A stretch of 44,807 nucleotides of DNA from Anaerolineaceae bacterium (GTDB lineage Bacteria; Chloroflexota; Anaerolineae; Anaerolineales; Anaerolineaceae): the NCBI GenBank assembly GCA_018060515.1, contig JAGOVY010000003.1:1-44807 (forward strand). The letters run 5' to 3'. The position numbers and the translations under genes are program-made. Positions 22,539 through 37,060 of the stretch are shown here, one piece after another. Numbering within the stretch: position 1 is the first letter of the stretch; every line of letters begins with the position of its first letter. Under the pieces are notes generated by a model that saw only the letters and a list, made by a program, of their open reading frames with translations, was not told the DNA's origin and made no database searches.

Positions 22539-23627
22539 TTATGGTTGGTGAATCTTAGCGGCGTGGCTCAAGACCTCGCAGCCCTCAGCTGTGACCAACA
22601 CCAAGTCTTCAATGCGCACACCGCCCCAGCCTTCGATGTAAATACCCGGCTCAATACTGGTCACCACGCCCGGCTGAATGAGTGGGCTTGTACCGCCAGG
22701 GCTTGTCCAGCGGACGAATGGAAACTCATGAACCTCCATGCCAATTCCGTGTCCCAAACCATGACCAAACTTATCACCATAACCAGCAGAAGCAATATAA
22801 TCACGAGCTAGCGCATCCACTTCATGTGCATGTACGCCTGCGCGAACACCATCAATGGCACGCTGATGAGCTGCCAGCACCGTGTTATAGATCGTCCAGA
22901 AGCGTTCGTCAGCATCGCCTAAGATAATGGTACGCGTTAGATCAGCGTTGTAACCGTTGATGTGCGCGCCCATATCGATAATAATCGAGCGTCCCACGCC
23001 TAACTTATCGTCACAGGGGCGGTGATGCGCCTGTGCTGCGTTTGGACCAGCCGCCACAATGATGGGGAAGGATGGCCGCTCTGCTCCGCCTTCTCGCAGC
23101 GCTTTTTCAAACATCCAGGCAGCATCAAGTTCGCTATGCTCAGGGCGTAACTGGGCAATGACCGTTTCCATCACATAGTCAGTCAGATCGATCGCTTTGC
23201 GCATGGCAGCCAGCTCAGCGTCATCTTTAATCGTGCGCAACTGTTCGACTAAACCAGCCACCGGTCGTAAAACAAAAACCCCAGCGATATTCTTGGACAA
23301 GTCAGCGTGTTCTGCAAAAGAGGTATGCGCTGCTTCAAAGCCCATCTCAGGGATGCCGTACTGCGCCGCGACTTCCACCAGCCATTCTGCAATCGTCTTG
23401 CCGGGGTTTACGACCTGGTGCACGCTGAAGGCAGGTGCTTCGGCAGCAGCTTGCAGTGTGTAACGACTATCTGTAAATAAGAAAGCGTGTTCAGGCGTGA
23501 TCAGCAGCCAGCCAGCGCCGCCGGTGAACCCGCTTAAGTAGCGGCGATTGACCGCGGAATTAATCAGGATTGCTGGTAAACCCTGTTCTTTCAAAAGTGC
23601 GCGTAATAGTTTAATGCGATCGGTCAT
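22539..23627 (-). CDS. M24-family Xaa-Pro aminopeptidase
   Basis: Cytoplasmic metallopeptidase removing N-terminal residues next to proline. The 362-residue protein has an N-terminal creatinase-like domain (about 1-125) and the C-terminal pita-bread fold. The two-metal site is complete: DMGAHINGYNADLTRT (two Asp), GHGLGHGIGMEVHE (His), SIEPGIYI (Glu) and GGVRIEDLVLV (Glu). Length and motifs match short PepQ/YpdF-like enzymes. ATG with AAGGAG upstream; a TATAAT (- strand, 23671-23676) may be its -10 box. It leads a two-gene unit with the ZIP-like gene. Prolidase versus aminopeptidase P activity cannot be decided from sequence. Confidence 0.9.
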   Translation of the reverse strand: MTDRIKLLRALLKEQGLPAILINSAVNRRYLSGFTGGAGWLLITPEHAFLFTDSRYTLQAAAEAPAFSVHQVVNPGKTIAEWLVEVAAQYGIPEMGFEAAHTSFAEHADLSKNIAGVFVLRPVAGLVEQLRTIKDDAELAAMRKAIDLTDYVMETVIAQLRPEHSELDAAWMFEKALREGGAERPSFPIIVAAGPNAAQAHHRPCDDKLGVGRSIIIDMGAHINGYNADLTRTIILGDADERFWTIYNTVLAAHQRAIDGVRAGVHAHEVDALARDYIASAGYGDKFGHGLGHGIGMEVHEFPFVRWTSPGGTSPLIQPGVVTSIEPGIYIEGWGGVRIEDLVLVTAEGCEVLSHAAKIHQP

Positions 23628-23676: not shown

Positions 23677-23774
23677 TCCTGTGTGCGAATCTTAGCTGGG
23701 TTAAAGAGGAAATAATTAAATCAAGTTGGGTTGGAGATGGAGAAAATGCTTCAATACTATGAGACGAAATCCGG

Positions 23775-24009
23775 GAGGGTCGCGGGGTTGACACCCTCGC
23801 AGCTTGCTTTTTAGCGGAGAGGGTCGCGGGGTCAGCACCCTTGCAGCGAACGTTTTTTGTGAGCGGAGAGGGTCGCGGGGTCAGCACCCTTGCAGCGAAC
23901 GTTTTTTGTGAGCGGAGAGGGTCGCGGGGTTGGCACCCTCGCAGCTTGCTTTTTAGCGGAGAGGGTCGCGGGGTCAGCACCCTTGCAGCGAACAGTTTTT
24001 GTGAGCGGA
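23775..24009 (-). repeat. Tandem array of tRNA-Ser 3'-end repeats (five units)
   Basis: Five head-to-tail units begin at 23775, 23819, 23868, 23917 and 23961, with lengths 44, 49, 49, 44 and 49 bp, and the array runs directly into the tRNA-Ser gene at its right end. There are two unit types, a 44-bp form (A) and a 49-bp form (B); reading outward from the tRNA the order is B A B B A. Every junction repeats GCGGAGAGGGT, which is the complement of the tRNA 3' end plus the first trailer base. Each unit contains an imperfect hairpin (GGGTC/T...ACCC) and an A/T-run. On the - strand the array is the direct 3' trailer of the tRNA. The 378-base gap 23628-24005 holds only this array and the M24 promoter region. 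Confidence 0.9.
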
Positions 24010-24093
24010 GAGGGTGGGATTTGAACCCACGGTGACCACGAGAGCCACAACGGTTTTCGAGACCGCCCCGATAAACCACTCCGGCACCTCTCC
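24006..24093 (-). tRNA. tRNA-Ser (anticodon CGA)
   Basis: An 88-base class II tRNA on the - strand. The acceptor stem GGAGAGG / CCTCTCC is perfect, followed by discriminator G. The anticodon loop CTCGAAA gives anticodon CGA (serine, UCG). The long variable arm typical of tRNA-Ser is present, and the T-arm is GTGGG-TTCAAAT-CCCAC. CCA is not encoded. It lies 26 bases after the stop of the beta-CASP RNase gene and is probably co-transcribed with it. The downstream trailer is a tandem array repeating this tRNA's own 3' end. Confidence 0.96.
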
Positions 24094-24119: not shown

Positions 24120-25514
24120 CTAAACCTCAACCACCTGGGTTAGCTCGGGGTAATGAACATTCGTAATCCCATGTTCCTGTAGTTTATTCATCAAGGCGTT
24201 TGCTGCATCTTCCTCACCGTGCACCAGATAGATGTCTTTTACCCTGCCCTGCATTGCAGCGGCGTATTTCACCAGCAAATCCTGCCCGGCATGTGCCGAA
24301 AGCCCTGTCACCACGCCAACCTCACAGCGCAGCTTATAAAGCTCTCCAAAAATCCGCACCTCGTCTGCGCCCTCCACCAGCCGCCTGCCGAGTGTGTATG
24401 GCGCCTGCCAGCCGACGATTAATACCGTATTCTTTTCATCTTCAATATTATTCTTAAGGTGATGCAGAATCCTGCCGGTCTCCGCCATCCCCGAAGCAGA
24501 GATAATCACCATCGGGCCCTTTTTATTGTTTATCGATTTTGATTCTTCAACAGATTGCACATAGGTGAGCCCTTTGAAGTCGAGCGCCTGGTGACGATGC
24601 TCTCGGATAAACTGGTTGGTTTCGGGGTCAAAATACTCTGGGTAGCTGGCAAAGATCTTTGAAGCCTGCACCGCCAATGGGCTGTCGACATAGACAGGCA
24701 GCGGGGGGATGATCCGATCACTGATCATTTGGTTGAGAAAGAACACAATTTCCTGGGTGCGTCCAACAGCAAACGCCGGGATAATGACCTTTCCGCCTCG
24801 ATCGCAGGTTTTTTTAACCAAAGTTGAAAACTTCAGATAGGCTTCTTCAACACTTTGGTGCTCTTTATCTCCATAGGTGCACTCCATCAAGAGGTAATCC
24901 GCATCGCTGGGCAGCACCGGGTCAGTGATGAGCGGTAAGCCATAACGCCCGATATCCCCTGAAAACCAAAGGCTCTTATGACTGCCATTTTCTTCAATAT
25001 CCAGACGGATGGCAGCGGAACCGAGGATGTGCCCGGCATCAAAGAACCTGACCGTCACCCCCGCAACCGGAGAAAACGGCTCGGTATATTTCACCGGATA
25101 ATATTGTTCAATCGCCCGCTCGGCATCCACTTTGCCATACAGCGGTTCAAGCGGTGGGTCCCCTCGGCGGGCGCGTTTCTTGTTCAGGTACTCAATATCC
25201 GCTTCCTGAATGTGGGCTGCATCCAGCAGCATGATCTCGCCGAGCGTCGCTGTCGGCGGTGTGGCATAGATCGGCCCGCTGAACCCGCTCTTCACCAGGT
25301 TGGGCAAATTCCCACTATGGTCAATGTGGGCGTGAGACAGAACCACAGCATCAAGTTTTTTGGTATCAAAGGCAAAATTGAGGTTCTTTTCATAGGTATC
25401 CGCCCGCCTGCCCTGAAACAGCCCGCAGTCTAACAACAGGGTTTTTCCATTGATTTCAAGCAGATGTTGAGATCCGGTGACGGTTTGAGCGGCGCCATTA
25501 AAGTGTATTTTCAT
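24120..25514 (-). CDS. Metallo-beta-lactamase / beta-CASP ribonuclease (CPSF73-like)
   Basis: A 464-residue RNA-processing nuclease of the MBL/beta-CASP class. The zinc site HAHIDH is at residues 61-66, followed by DAGHILGSA and FSGDIGRYG. The beta-CASP part has the ISASGMAETGRILHHL segment. The C-terminal RMMBL-like region has GLSAHAGQDLL and the final VHGEE. It resembles the bacterial YsH1/TTHA0252 type of endo/exoribonuclease rather than RNase J. Its ATG overlaps the stop of the RNase D-like gene (ATGA), and tRNA-Ser follows after 26 bases. The context suggests a role in RNA or tRNA maturation, which is inference. Confidence 0.9.
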   Translation of the reverse strand: MKIHFNGAAQTVTGSQHLLEINGKTLLLDCGLFQGRRADTYEKNLNFAFDTKKLDAVVLSHAHIDHSGNLPNLVKSGFSGPIYATPPTATLGEIMLLDAAHIQEADIEYLNKKRARRGDPPLEPLYGKVDAERAIEQYYPVKYTEPFSPVAGVTVRFFDAGHILGSAAIRLDIEENGSHKSLWFSGDIGRYGLPLITDPVLPSDADYLLMECTYGDKEHQSVEEAYLKFSTLVKKTCDRGGKVIIPAFAVGRTQEIVFFLNQMISDRIIPPLPVYVDSPLAVQASKIFASYPEYFDPETNQFIREHRHQALDFKGLTYVQSVEESKSINNKKGPMVIISASGMAETGRILHHLKNNIEDEKNTVLIVGWQAPYTLGRRLVEGADEVRIFGELYKLRCEVGVVTGLSAHAGQDLLVKYAAAMQGRVKDIYLVHGEEDAANALMNKLQEHGITNVHYPELTQVVEV

Positions 25515-26653
25515 TTTTCCTCAATTGTTTTCAGTTGTTGGAGAATTTCCTCTCCATAGCGTTGAAAACGCCATGGTACTGCTGACATGATTGCCTGCAG
25601 TTCAGATAAATTGCCAGGGTTCAGGCAGGCAATCCGCTCTAAAACTTCTCTGGGTAAAACGATGTCTGATTCAATTTTTGAATGCTGCGCCAGCGTTTTA
25701 CGCCATTCGTGTAAGGTTTTAAAGCGCTCCACGGTCGCCGCAGAAGGCTTCTTGCGCGCTGGTCGTGAAAGAGGTTTCGCTTTTTCCCCTGTTTTTATCG
25801 CATTCAACAAAGCATTTCCGTGATGCAAGACCAGTTTTTGGTTGACACCCGGGACGAGGGCTAATTCTTCAGGTGAGTGCGGCGCTGAGCGGCTGAGTTC
25901 AACCAATAGTTGGTTGGAGAAAACCTTGAAGTGCGGGACGTTCATTTTTTGCGCTTGCTGGTCGCGGTAATTACAGAGCGCCTGTAAAATCGCTGATTCT
26001 TGATCGCTCAGATGATTGTTGCCAACCACTTTCCAGCACGAAGCGCCATTGGGATCTGACAGAGGCTGCTCGACGGCCGTCACAAGCGCAAAATCTTCCT
26101 GCGCAAGGTTCCAGAGATCCTGAGTAATCAGTTTCTCCTCGAGCACGGTTTTTAATGCAAAAAGATAGTGGGTATCCATACGCGCGTAATCCAGCATTTC
26201 ACCGGAGAGCGGTCGTTTGCCCCAATTGGCGCGTTGATATTTTTTTTCAAGATCCACCCCAAAGTAAGTCTCGAGCAGTGAGCCCAGCCCTACGCGTGGT
26301 TCAGCCAATATTCGGGCGGCGATCATGGTATCAAAAATATTGTTGAAAACAAATCTGTAATCGCGTTTCAGGCAAATGATGTCATATTCTGCGGCGTGAA
26401 AGATTTTCAGTTGAGCCGGGTTAGCAAAAATCGGCGCCAGCGAAGAAAGATCATCCATCTGCAGCGGGTCAATCAGGTAATCTGTTTCAGGTGTAGAAAT
26501 TTGAATCAGGCAAACCCGCTCGCGGTAGGCAAAGAGCGAGTTAGACTCGGTATCAATCGCGAGCAACGGTGAAGCAGAAATTGCTTCGATCATTTTCTGT
26601 AAGGATGCGGGAGCAGCAACCCAGTGCGGCTCGGTTGTGATTGGCGGTAACAT
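25511..26653 (-). CDS. rnd: RNase D-like 3'-5' exonuclease with HRDC domain
   Basis: A DEDD-family exoribonuclease of 380 residues, about the size of E. coli RNase D, which trims tRNA 3' ends. Exo I is LAIDTES (D34, E36). Exo II includes FHAAEYDIICLKRDY, and Exo III is YARMDTHYLF (YxxxD, the DEDDy type). An HRDC domain follows at about 210-285. The frame is open 19 codons further upstream, but the ATG at 26653 is preferred because it opens the conserved part and sits six bases after TATAAT. There is no Shine-Dalgarno sequence, so the mRNA may be leaderless. It overlaps the beta-CASP RNase gene by four bases. Confidence 0.9.
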   Translation of the reverse strand: MLPPITTEPHWVAAPASLQKMIEAISASPLLAIDTESNSLFAYRERVCLIQISTPETDYLIDPLQMDDLSSLAPIFANPAQLKIFHAAEYDIICLKRDYRFVFNNIFDTMIAARILAEPRVGLGSLLETYFGVDLEKKYQRANWGKRPLSGEMLDYARMDTHYLFALKTVLEEKLITQDLWNLAQEDFALVTAVEQPLSDPNGASCWKVVGNNHLSDQESAILQALCNYRDQQAQKMNVPHFKVFSNQLLVELSRSAPHSPEELALVPGVNQKLVLHHGNALLNAIKTGEKAKPLSRPARKKPSAATVERFKTLHEWRKTLAQHSKIESDIVLPREVLERIACLNPGNLSELQAIMSAVPWRFQRYGEEILQQLKTIEEK

Positions 26654-26659
26654 GAAGGG

Positions 26660-26665
26660 ATTATA
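26660..26665 (-). promoter_or_regulatory. -10 box for a possible leaderless RNase D-type mRNA
   Basis: On the - strand CGGGTTATAAT places TATAAT six bases before the ATG at 26653. The same 11-base string precedes the lipoprotein gene at 37133. The 205-base gap between this gene and the phosphatase gene shows nothing else convincing. Confidence 0.45.
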
Positions 26666-26858
26666 ACCCGCTTTGCCTGGCTTCACGCCTGGTTTACAGG
26701 TTGATGCCAAAGAATTTGTAATGCGACTGCGTACTGGTTATTGGTGAGAAGCCTGTGGCTCAAGACCTGGGGAATTCTTTGAGACCCAAGAGACGGCATG
26801 TGTACCGCCAAAGTACCTGGCTTCTCTAATGCAACATTTTATTACATTGAGGGGTTTG

Positions 26859-33561: not shown

Positions 33562-36439
33562 AGTTTACCGTTGCTGATTGCTGAAAATTACCGGCTGTGT
33601 CCCAGGCTTTGAGAACTACTTCATAAGTATCTGATTCTGCGATTAATGGGTAGGTGAATGGTGGCGTGGTCTGCTCCATCACCTCTCTGCCGTTCACCCA
33701 CCATTCCACGCGTGCAATGCCTGAAGCATCTTCTGCGGAGGCGGAGAGGGTAACTCGCCCAGCCAGCGCTACAACCGTTTGGTTGTCAGACGGCTGAATG
33801 ATTTGTACAAATGGCGGGGTGTTGTCAATCGTTACCTGCGTGTAAGCGGTGTGAATCAGGTTTTGCTGATCCACAACACTCAGCCGGATGGCATACATGC
33901 CATTCAAGCCGCTGGTATCAAACTCAGCCAGGGTTCCAGCACTTACCGGCTGTGTGGATTCAGCCACTTTCAGCCACTTGCTCGGGAAGATCCCCTGGCC
34001 CGCCTGCACCTGATAAGAAGAAAAGCCTTCGCCGCCAGCCGTGCCGGTGATCAGAATTTTCCCCGCCACCGTGGATAGTAGAGCGGGATACGCGATATTT
34101 ACATCGGGGTTGATATTGCCAATTTGGATGACATCGTACCCCTGCGGGATAATGCCGATACCTTCCCGCTTCGCCCAGTCACGCCCCTCAGCGGGGATGT
34201 TCATCAGCAACTGCTCTTCCACCAGCGCCGCCGGTGAAAAAACGGTTGCCAGCAGCCCTGTTTCACGGTTAATCTTCACCCTTGCAAAAAGCGTGTCAGT
34301 CAGGTTGGGCTCGTTACCCTTGAGAAAAACGTCATAAACCTGATTTGGGCAGTCGGCTGTGGGGAGCATGCCCGAGGGACTGCATACCCTCAGCGAGGTG
34401 ACCCCTTCAGGCGTTGCCCAGCCCTCAAATGCCGGCTGCTGAAGGAGATATGTTGAAAGTGCGTGTAATATGCCTGCGGGCATTCTCTCGCTCAATCGCG
34501 GAGCGCCCTGCCCCGATGCAGTTTCTGGTCCCATCCACACCAGCACGAGGCGGTCGGAGGTGTAGCTCACGCCCCACACCTGGCGCTGATCATCGGCGCT
34601 GCCGCTGGCAAAAGCAGCTTGCGAAGCCACCTCGATCTCATTGGCAGGGATCTGCCCCTGCCAGCGCGCACGCGCGTCGCTGAGGATATGATTGACCAGA
34701 TAGGCGACACTATCGCTGACGATGACGGCTTCGGCAGCAGCCGGTTTTTGCCAGATTGACTGCCCGCCGAGCGTAAAAACCTGATTGACCATTTCAGGCA
34801 GAATTTCGCCTGTTTCCGCCTGCAGCTGGCCGTTGCGCACCCCCATATTCGCCAACGTTCCAAACGCAGCCGCCACCTGCAGCAGGCTGTTCTCGCTCCC
34901 GCCCAATAGCGGAGAGGCATCATCGGGCGCGTTCTGCAATCCCTGCATGCCAATCAATGCCGCATAACGCCAGGTGGTATACGCGCCGGTTTCCACGGCC
35001 AGGTTGGCAATCGGGTTAAGGTAGCCGTTCGCAACCGATGAACGTATGTTCACAGCGCCGCGGTAATGCCCATTAGAAATTCCCAGTGAGTTGGTGTAAG
35101 CCGGAATATCCCACAACAGGCTGGCTGGCGAATAGCCCTGTGTAAATGCGCTGAGCGCCACAAACGGAGAAAGCAATGACCCGGGCTGATAACGCCTGAT
35201 TTGGATCGGGTCACTACCGTTTTTCTGCGGCTCATGATAGGCCAGCACCTCTCCCGTTTTCGGGTTCAACACCACCCCGGCTGCCGCCAATGGAACGGTT
35301 CCCAAAGTGGTTAAGGCTTGAACAGGCAAATGGAGGGCGGCTGCGCATAAATGCTCGTCAGGCGCCACCACGCTTTTTCCACGTTGTCTGATTCGGTTCA
35401 ATTGAGTATCTGAGGTGCAAACCAACTGCTGCTGCAAATCGGCATCCAGCGTGGTAACCACCAGCAGACCGCCGCGGTGCAATCGCTGCAGGCTGATTTC
35501 ACTCGCCAGGCGTTGATCCACCAGCAGAGCCAACCCGGCGGCACTGTCAGGGTCATCAGCGGGTGGCTGGCGCAGGTTGATGTTTTCGGCCAGCGCCTGC
35601 TCGTATTCTTCGCGCTCAATCGTGCCGGAGGCAAGCATCTGCGCGAGAAAATCCTGCTGCCGGCTGAGCGCGGCTGCCGGCGCAGTGTGTGGCATTAGCG
35701 TTGGGTGATCGATCAACGGAATTAATAGCGCCGCCTCTGCCAGGGTTACCTCTGCCGCTGACTTGCCCAGATACAACTGCGCCGCACTCTCCACACCGTA
35801 GGTATAACCGCCAAACCAGGCGCTGTTCAAGTACCATTCAAGCGTTTTCGCGCGCCCATAGTGATTCACCACCTGCGCGGCAAGCAGACGCATACGCAAT
35901 GAACGGGTGATGGTGGGCGCCTCATCCCACAAGAGCAGATCACTGACCAGTCGCTCGGCAATTGTCATGGGTTCCGATGCCTGCCAATGGAGCAGGCTGA
36001 AGCCGGGGCTTGCCCAGAAGCCAGGCTCATAAGCCGCCACGACAGCGCGCACCAGCTGCGGGCTGATAAAAGTACCCTCATCAGGGTTTATGGATAGGAA
36101 TTTTCTTTCAACGCCTTCATTTTGATAGGTATACAGTACCGTCAGGGCGTCGCGGTCCAAGAGCTTGGTTGGCTGCAGCAGTTCACCGTGTGTGTTGTCA
36201 AGCAATATGGGCAGCGTATCAATCGAAGGCAATTCGTGCAGCGCCTGTGAGGACGCGGTTACAGCCAGAACAAAGAAAGCAGCCGCCGCCAGCGTAAAAA
36301 GTACAGCCCCAACCCGCGCGCTGACGCCCAAAAATCGGTTGTTGCGCTGTGTGCGCTTCAGCGCAGAAAGGCGGCGGTTTTTGCGCAGAAAGTAAAGCGA
36401 GGTTTTATGCACCAGCCCTCGTTTCAGCCATCGGCACAC
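33545..36439 (-). CDS. Class A penicillin-binding-protein-like protein (PBP1C type) with most catalytic residues replaced
   Basis: A 964-residue envelope protein: a basic cytoplasmic tail, a membrane segment at about 42-64, a GT51 glycosyltransferase fold (about 120-260), a transpeptidase fold (about 385-650), the PBP1C-like CSPSG...DCP region (about 680-710) and an Ig-like C-terminal domain (about 870-962). In the GT51 part the ED pair before Phe reads Y137-E138, the following His is S144, and the RKxxE glutamate is M183. In the transpeptidase the S421 nucleophile is kept, but SxxK reads SLLS (Lys to S424), SxN reads Y473-L-N475, and KTGT reads ASGS (611-614). The fold is kept over the full length without stop or frameshift, so it is probably a structural or regulatory pseudo-enzyme. 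GTG at 36439 lacks a ribosome-binding site; GTG at 36412, with GAGGG upstream, is the better start. Confidence 0.85.
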   Translation of the reverse strand: MCRWLKRGLVHKTSLYFLRKNRRLSALKRTQRNNRFLGVSARVGAVLFTLAAAAFFVLAVTASSQALHELPSIDTLPILLDNTHGELLQPTKLLDRDALTVLYTYQNEGVERKFLSINPDEGTFISPQLVRAVVAAYEPGFWASPGFSLLHWQASEPMTIAERLVSDLLLWDEAPTITRSLRMRLLAAQVVNHYGRAKTLEWYLNSAWFGGYTYGVESAAQLYLGKSAAEVTLAEAALLIPLIDHPTLMPHTAPAAALSRQQDFLAQMLASGTIEREEYEQALAENINLRQPPADDPDSAAGLALLVDQRLASEISLQRLHRGGLLVVTTLDADLQQQLVCTSDTQLNRIRQRGKSVVAPDEHLCAAALHLPVQALTTLGTVPLAAAGVVLNPKTGEVLAYHEPQKNGSDPIQIRRYQPGSLLSPFVALSAFTQGYSPASLLWDIPAYTNSLGISNGHYRGAVNIRSSVANGYLNPIANLAVETGAYTTWRYAALIGMQGLQNAPDDASPLLGGSENSLLQVAAAFGTLANMGVRNGQLQAETGEILPEMVNQVFTLGGQSIWQKPAAAEAVIVSDSVAYLVNHILSDARARWQGQIPANEIEVASQAAFASGSADDQRQVWGVSYTSDRLVLVWMGPETASGQGAPRLSERMPAGILHALSTYLLQQPAFEGWATPEGVTSLRVCSPSGMLPTADCPNQVYDVFLKGNEPNLTDTLFARVKINRETGLLATVFSPAALVEEQLLMNIPAEGRDWAKREGIGIIPQGYDVIQIGNINPDVNIAYPALLSTVAGKILITGTAGGEGFSSYQVQAGQGIFPSKWLKVAESTQPVSAGTLAEFDTSGLNGMYAIRLSVVDQQNLIHTAYTQVTIDNTPPFVQIIQPSDNQTVVALAGRVTLSASAEDASGIARVEWWVNGREVMEQTTPPFTYPLIAESDTYEVVLKAWDTAGNFQQSATVNFNVQR

Positions 36440-36618: not shown

Positions 36619-37060
36619 GGTTTGAAACTTAGCGTCCTTCGCGCCTTCGCGGTTGATCCCAGTCGCCCCCACGAGCGAACGGTTTGCAACTTAGCGTCCT
36701 TCGCACCTTTGCGGTAAGAAACAAACCGCCTCCCAAACGGAAGGCATGGTTTGCAACTTAGCGCTCTTCGCGCCTTTGCGGTAAGAAAAAAGCCGTCTCC
36801 CGCACGGAAAGATCGGTTTGCAACTTAGCGTCCTTCGCGTTTTTGCGGTAAGAAAAAAACCGCCTCCCGCACGGAAAGATTGGTTTGCAGCTTGGCGTCC
36901 TTCGCGCCTTTACGGTAAGAAAAAAGCCGTCTCCCGCACGGAAAGATCGGTTTGCAACTTAGCGTCCTTCGCGTTTTTGCGTTAAGAAAAAAACTGCCCC
37001 CTCCACAAAAAGCATGGTTTGCAACTTAGCGTCCTTCGCGCCTTTGCGGTTGATCCCATT
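36619..37060. repeat. Intergenic tandem array, seven copies of a 62-67-bp unit
   Basis: Copies begin (at GGTTTG) at 36619, 36681, 36748, 36815, 36882, 36949 and 37016: one spacing of 62, then five of exactly 67. The core GGTTTGCAACTTAGCGTCC followed by TTCGCGCCTTTGCGGTAAG is well kept; the linker (CCGTCTCCCGCACGG, a small hairpin) varies more. The core can form an imperfect hairpin from CTTAGCG and CGGTAAG. Read on the - strand a unit translates to REGAKDAK-like peptides, but no frame is continuous across the array. It fills the 693-base gap between two divergently transcribed envelope genes. There are no spacers, so it is not a CRISPR array. Confidence 0.9.

Follow-up and report, generated by a model that had tools for sequence, protein, structure and literature searches.

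The closest described counterparts of the repeats studied here are the rtT repeats of the E. coli tyrT/tyrV operon, which follow an intact tRNA gene in tandem and carry the 3' end of that tRNA in each unit. In E. coli K-12 (NC_000913) the last 19 nt of tRNA-Tyr, AATCCTTCCCCCACCACCA, which start in the T-loop, are found in three copies behind tyrV at a spacing of 178 bp. Within these units (1067-1245 of the tyrV/rttR stretch L407) AATCCTTCCCCCACCACCA is preceded by GCTTCGACCAAGGTTCGACTC, which closely resembles the tRNA from its variable region through the T-stem into the T-loop (CTTCGAAGGTTCGAATC), and a hairpin-rich insert stands between the two. A partial literature search met no account of rtT as a split tRNA 3' half.

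Direct repeats of tRNA 3' ends are also known as attachment-site duplications. Both the 3' ends and the T-loops of tRNAs are well-known sites of integrase action. Among extragenic short palindromes, REP (repetitive extragenic palindromes) measure about 20 bp and are known together with the RAYT transposases (PMC3733652). Here we describe a tRNA-end array in the window, the whole stretch of 44,807 nt of Anaerolineaceae DNA that was analysed (contig JAGOVY010000003.1), and compare it with these systems and with arrays behind other tRNAs.

The array behind tRNA-Ser(CGA)

The tRNA-Ser(CGA) gene (24005-24093, minus strand), whose identity was confirmed by ARAGORN and Rfam, is intact, does not encode CCA and is the source of the copied 3' end. 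This end and the start of the trailer make up the 12 bases ACCCTCTCCGCT (minus strand), which are found exactly at 24004-24015 in the tRNA itself and again at 23955-23966, 23911-23922, 23862-23873 and 23813-23824, the junctions of units 1 to 4. At the fifth junction (about 23771-23780) stands CCCTCCCGG, which gives the array four exact copies and one degenerate copy. All units are on the minus strand: unit 1 (type B, 23957-24004) is the trailer with a hairpin at 23961-23984, and it is followed by unit 2 (type A, 44 bp, 23913-23956, hairpin 23917-23940), unit 3 (type B, 49 bp, 23864-23912, hairpin 23868-23891), unit 4 (type B, identical to unit 3, 23815-23863, hairpin 23819-23842) and unit 5 (type A, 23771-23814, hairpin 23775-23798), which ends in the degenerate copy. 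The copy spacings of 49, 44, 49, 49 and 44 bp agree with the initial annotation, which gave five units in tandem, ordered B A B B A; the tRNA 3' end that it placed at every junction is exact at four of them and degenerate at the fifth. TRF scored the array at 315, with 4.2 copies of 49 bp and 85% matches. The 12-mer has no further occurrence in the window, and the 11-mer is found once more, at 33741.

Each unit has a potential hairpin of the layout GAGGGTGC-7 nt-GC-R-ACCCTC. The imperfect hairpin noted earlier for every unit is a fair description of type A, where it is the predicted minimum-energy fold (z -1.8), and a weak one of type B alone, where it is not the predicted minimum-energy fold (z -0.2). 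Inside the window array we found no terminator on the tRNA strand, no cut-off-passing match to Rfam families other than tRNA, and no conserved ORF or tpr-like reading frame; the unit lengths of 44 and 49 bp are not multiples of three.

The array shares with rtT the tandem repeats directly behind an intact tRNA and the own tRNA 3' end in each unit. The earlier comparison with E. coli tyrT was apt, as rtT units also consist of a tRNA 3' half with a hairpin-rich T-loop insert, and a 3' half split in this way is clear for most other tRNAs with arrays in the genome and family. On the other hand, the copied end is 12 nt in the window array and 19 nt in E. coli, the units of most Anaerolineaceae arrays are 44-90 bp and not 178 bp, the annotated tpr reading frame of rtT has no counterpart in them, and many tRNAs are concerned in Anaerolineaceae as against one locus in E. 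coli. The window array is built like rtT, yet we do not file it as an rtT member because its unit size, its reading frames and the Rfam criteria speak against membership.

Downstream of the array lies a gene for an M24 (creatinase/prolidase-type) peptidase (22539-23627, minus strand). The tRNA is preceded on the same strand by a gene for a beta-CASP/RMMBL metallo-beta-lactamase-fold (MBL) RNA hydrolase-like protein (24120-25514) and an RNase D-like gene with a 3'-5' exonuclease domain and HRDC (25511-26710). The initial annotation saw in these RNase genes a reason to suspect a functional role of the array. However, the order RNase D, beta-CASP MBL, tRNA-Ser(CGA) (24120-26710 in the window, also in L022) is conserved with or without an array, hence the beta-CASP gene is not part of the array, and arrays are also found behind at least 12 other tRNA species, whose neighbours differ. 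As the neighbourhood is kept regardless of the array, a link between the array and the RNase genes is not supported.

A second minisatellite, of about 5.5 units of 67 bp around CTTAGCGTCCTTCGCGCCTTTGCGG, was seen in the window at 36619-37050, not near a tRNA. A related sequence, CTTAGCGTTCTTAGCGCCTTCGCGG, comes after a Glu array in L078.

Distribution among tRNAs, relatives and other phyla

We queried 100 genomes of relatives with the tRNA and array. tRNA-Ser(CGA) is present in nearly all of them, and a Ser tandem array was detected in about half of the same-GTDB-family genomes with trailers read, a set including Anaerolineaceae bin45 (G004), UBA2260 (G005), UBA6107 (G009), Leptolinea tardivitalis YMTK-2 (G025) and the complete genome of Leptolinea sp. 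HRD-7 (G058). The units vary between genomes, and copies of the tRNA 3' end are always present. As the complete HRD-7 chromosome has at least seven Ser units of 64 bp, the arrays are not assembly artefacts. Contigs ending inside arrays were seen in G015 (C27, C35), G034 (C9), G050 (C14) and G052 (C22, C25), where the true arrays may be longer.

The strict Ser-array pattern was found in 15 of 147 family genomes, although one of the 15 (G147) looks unrelated, and in 7 of the 16 genomes of the window's genus. Outside Anaerolineaceae, a search of 400 Chloroflexota genomes gave almost no true Ser arrays, the matches being almost all unrelated palindromes. The close relatives G010, G012 and G013 have two, five and two Ser units, and many relatives have the same tRNA-Ser locus without an array. 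The initial annotation took an absence of comparable arrays from close relatives, together with a lack of transcript past the tRNA 3' end, as a sign of neutral local duplication; arrays are in fact common throughout the genus and the family. Several genera have the Ser unit motif CGTTCGGCT...GAGGGYGC in common, which indicates that some arrays are old and not fleeting.

Further, the last 34 nt of each tRNA in the stretches examined were compared with its own trailer, and a copy was counted at 11 nt or more. The match lengths are bimodal, and shuffled trailers seldom exceed 10 nt. Six of 30 tRNAs in the window's genome (Ser-CGA, Met, Lys-TTT, Lys-CTT, Pro-CGG and Glu-TTC) have arrays of their own 3' end, and the copied end is 18-21 nt at the five tRNAs other than Ser-CGA. 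Own-3'-end copies were found for 7/28 and 7/34 tRNAs in the congeners G004 and G015, 4/27 (Ser-CGA, Lys-TTT, Val-CAC and Arg-GCG) in the cultured L. tardivitalis (G025), 3/22 in HRD-7 (G058), 3/19 in G044, 0/14 in G031 and 2/29 in G071, which belongs to another family of the order. Most Anaerolineaceae genomes examined hold several such arrays. The array of the window is genuine and rtT-like; its genome has at least six tRNA-end arrays in all, and Anaerolineaceae have many.

The copying is restricted to the 3' end: with a stricter cut of 12 nt and other tRNAs masked, downstream 3'-end copies were detected for 27 of 169 tRNAs, against upstream 5'-end copies for none of 75. Arrays were found behind none of the 22 tRNAs with encoded CCA and behind 38 of 200 others, but exclusion by an encoded CCA was rejected as a rule, since G010, G012 and G013 have Ser arrays behind encoded CCA.

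In other phyla, the matches listed for the Ser pattern include Patescibacteria (L228, L258), Bacteroidetes (L242, L270), Steroidobacteraceae (L259) and Lachnospiraceae (L239), where tRNA-Ser is followed by one or two interrupted copies. Also among the matches listed are an unclassified bacterium (L169) with interrupted copies behind both tRNA-Ser and tRNA-Leu, and a Dehalococcoidales contig (L193) with an interrupted Ser copy at its end and no tRNA. Anaerolineaceae account for about a dozen of the approximately 116 stretches among the matches listed, and for about 0.15% of the species searched. Our literature search, which mostly covered journals outside subscription, found no description of such arrays.

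Unit anatomy and the hairpin insert

The typical unit is a copied tRNA 3' half with a hairpin insert that splits it within the T-arm or next to it, and the units have no genes inside. In most units tRNA sequence flanks the insert on both sides, and the flanks match the local tRNA. The tRNA of the Met array in G004, for instance, reads GGTCGCAGGTT-CGATCCCTGCCGGGCCCACC and its unit GGTCGCAGGTT-CTCTTACAGAGCGCTTCGCGG-CGATCCCTGCCGGGCCCACC with CTCTTACAGAGCGCTTCGCGG as the insert, and the unit of the Arg array in G018 reads GAGGTTCAGGG-TCCCCGGAAGGGGATGATA-TTCGAATCCCTGCGGGGGCGC with TCCCCGGAAGGGGATGATA as the insert. In 17 of 38 arrays the first base of the exact copy falls on tRNA positions 54-57. 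For tRNA-Ser the insert is often located between T-stem and acceptor strand (L003, L016, L026, L044). The Ser unit of the window has the layout CGTTCGCTGC-GAGGGTGC-n7-GCG-ACCCTCTCCG with a strongly degenerate stretch ahead of the hairpin, and judged by its sequence it may be a worn form of an insert at this place.

The insert TCCCC-loop-GGGGATGATA (about 20 nt) occupies nearly the same T-arm position in units behind at least 12 isoacceptors and in 10 of 40 genera. The pattern CCCCN{3,6}GGGGATGMTATTCGA was found in 16 of 147 family genomes (10 of 40 genera) as against no matches for the reversed control, and nearly all matches with readable context stand directly behind a tRNA of the same sequence. 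The tRNAs with the insert behind them are Arg-TCG, Lys-CTT, Lys-TTT, Glu-TTC, Glu-CTC, Val-CAC, Val-GAC, Met, Gly-TCC, Gly-GCC, Ser-CGA, Ser-GGA, Ser-GCT and Asn, with close variants at Pro-GGG and Cys. The one clear exception to the tRNA linkage is the bare hairpin TATCCCCTAAAGGGGATGA, which stands in tandem near a non-tRNA gene in L408 (G018; near base 2081 of the minus strand). Each genome tends to have loop versions of its own, which recur behind different tRNAs (ACAGG in G106, ATTGA in G055), and two inserts were seen in one T-arm for Gly-GCC in G106 and Glu in G107. Like REP, the inserts are short palindromes outside genes; unlike REP they are not dispersed in the genomes tested, no GTAG/CGTC tag was seen and there is no link to a Y1 transposase, and without this association we rejected REP/RAYT identity.

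Of 38 arrays, 12 have a perfect stem of 5 bp or more immediately 5' of the copied end, against 2.1 expected and a maximum of 6 in 200 shuffles. When the 42 nt around the joint are folded as a whole, the energy is only mildly low (mean z -0.65), the focused stem test being the stronger of the two. The covariation analysis suggested by the initial annotation gave one compensated pair over 21 Ser hairpins, in which 93.5% of cells pair: U-A has changed to C-G in 7 of the 21 units, with two U-G forms, and the change lies within the genus, for example between the near relatives G010 and G013. Together this points to some pressure on, or renewal of, hairpin pairing. Template switching in replication is able to renew such pairing (PMC8794818); short perfect hairpins would be made or restored by it, and compensatory changes could arise along with them. 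By its abstract, that work concerns subjects other than tRNA-end repeats, and template switching is for the arrays a candidate process.

We also considered whether the insert might lock away the copied acceptor strand and so protect the folding of the tRNA. This was rejected, as pairing of the copied strand was 0.473 with native and 0.479 with shuffled inserts (p 0.89), and pairing with the copy showed no difference in a full fold of tRNA and unit (p 0.15). The tRNA's own acceptor-strand pairing was slightly lower with the native insert in the full fold (p 0.014), the absolute values of which may be skewed by multiloop terms of the energy model.

In at least nine arrays the first copy is separated from the tRNA by a hairpin and T-run that resemble a terminator, as in L078, L087, L165, L105, L327, L374, L377 and L417. 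The terminator of the tRNA is itself repeated in several arrays; for Glu in L078 the form is tRNA-(terminator-joint-3' end)n-terminator. Some units have short shared sequence at the duplication boundaries, and in the Glu array of L377 the trailer GGTTAAAAGG is fused to the tRNA sequence CTAAAACGG.

Origin and possible roles of the arrays

The array is probably a tRNA-seeded minisatellite of the E. coli tyrT (rtT) kind that requires no dedicated function, which is also the best-fitting of the readings offered by the initial annotation. A segment from the tRNA 3' half through the trailer would have been duplicated in tandem, and a short hairpin insert would have broken up the extra 3' half within its T-arm or next to it. 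Through slippage or unequal exchange the unit number would then change and the units stay alike, and extra copies would be tolerated, located as they are past the tRNA 3' end. In Anaerolineaceae the same events may have taken place behind many tRNAs, with arrays repeatedly lost and re-formed. For the process we propose slippage during replication or template switching, and we suggest that a dedicated function is absent.

Duplication and slippage at the DNA level explain poorly why the insert recurs at one T-arm position. Nor does a neutral process readily explain nearly the same insert behind so many isoacceptors and in so many genera, or the compensatory change in a third of the Ser units, and the age of some arrays, seen from the Ser motif common to several genera, argues against fleeting neutral arrays. 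It is conceivable, if doubtful, that a dedicated process both builds and maintains the arrays of interrupted 3' halves across Anaerolineaceae, be it an activity that inserts specifically into T-arms or selection for an RNA with a T-arm hairpin, and that E. coli rtT is another product of a like process.

The trailer might also be a functional RNA, read-through transcripts being cut at the copied ends into small RNAs or acting as decoys for tRNA 3'-end enzymes. The annotation of E. coli rttR as a small RNA on like-built repeats, the pairing and the compensated pair of the Ser hairpin, the motif shared between genera and the window array free of terminators on the tRNA strand are in accordance with such an RNA. 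We nevertheless hold it to be unlikely: many relatives are without an array at the same tRNA-Ser locus and arrays come and go between close relatives, the units vary by tRNA and species, and with a terminator-like element before the first copy the later units should rarely be transcribed. The predicted folding is moreover independent of the insert, unlike what selection on the tRNA would lead us to expect. Another reading takes the insert to be a mobile or copied element with site specificity for the T-arms of tRNA 3' halves, the duplication letting the tRNA survive. The placement of CCCCN{3,6}GGGGATGMTATTCGA directly behind tRNAs, the genome-specific loops common to different tRNAs and the double inserts would fit, but the insert measures merely about 20 bp, no Y1 transposase was found in the insert carriers G018, G105 and G107, many Y1-rich genomes are without the insert, and it is not dispersed elsewhere in the genomes tested; we regard this reading as quite improbable. 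A phage origin of the insert was rejected, as viral contigs gave no match.

We give a very low probability to the copies being attachment-site footprints of phages or islands that integrate at tRNA genes. The known integrase preference for tRNA 3' ends and T-loops and the start of the exact copy at positions 54-57 agree with it, as do direct repeats of the tRNA 3' end as such; the small, gene-free units with tRNA sequence on both sides of the insert do not, the copies being hairpin-interrupted and tandem with no element between them, and the arrays lack the unbroken tRNA 3' segment that would mark the distal end of an integrated element. In G015 (L411) and G107 (L421) we observed truncated tRNA-Lys 3' halves that are long and uninterrupted, begin in the anticodon loop, have no hairpin and are followed by an array. 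They are probably distal attachment sites of integrated elements; no integrase gene was found nearby in the short stretches examined, judged from translations alone. Since these likely attachment-site copies differ in build from the arrays of the same genomes, integrase scars were rejected as the array origin.

Repeats of a tRNA 3' end are not necessarily integrase scars, and assemblies may break at tRNA-end arrays. The rtT repeats have so far been an isolated oddity of one E. coli tRNA operon, and a like anatomy recurs behind many tRNAs of Anaerolineaceae. This recurrence makes both the origin of such repeats and the possible activity of trailer RNAs accessible to comparison.
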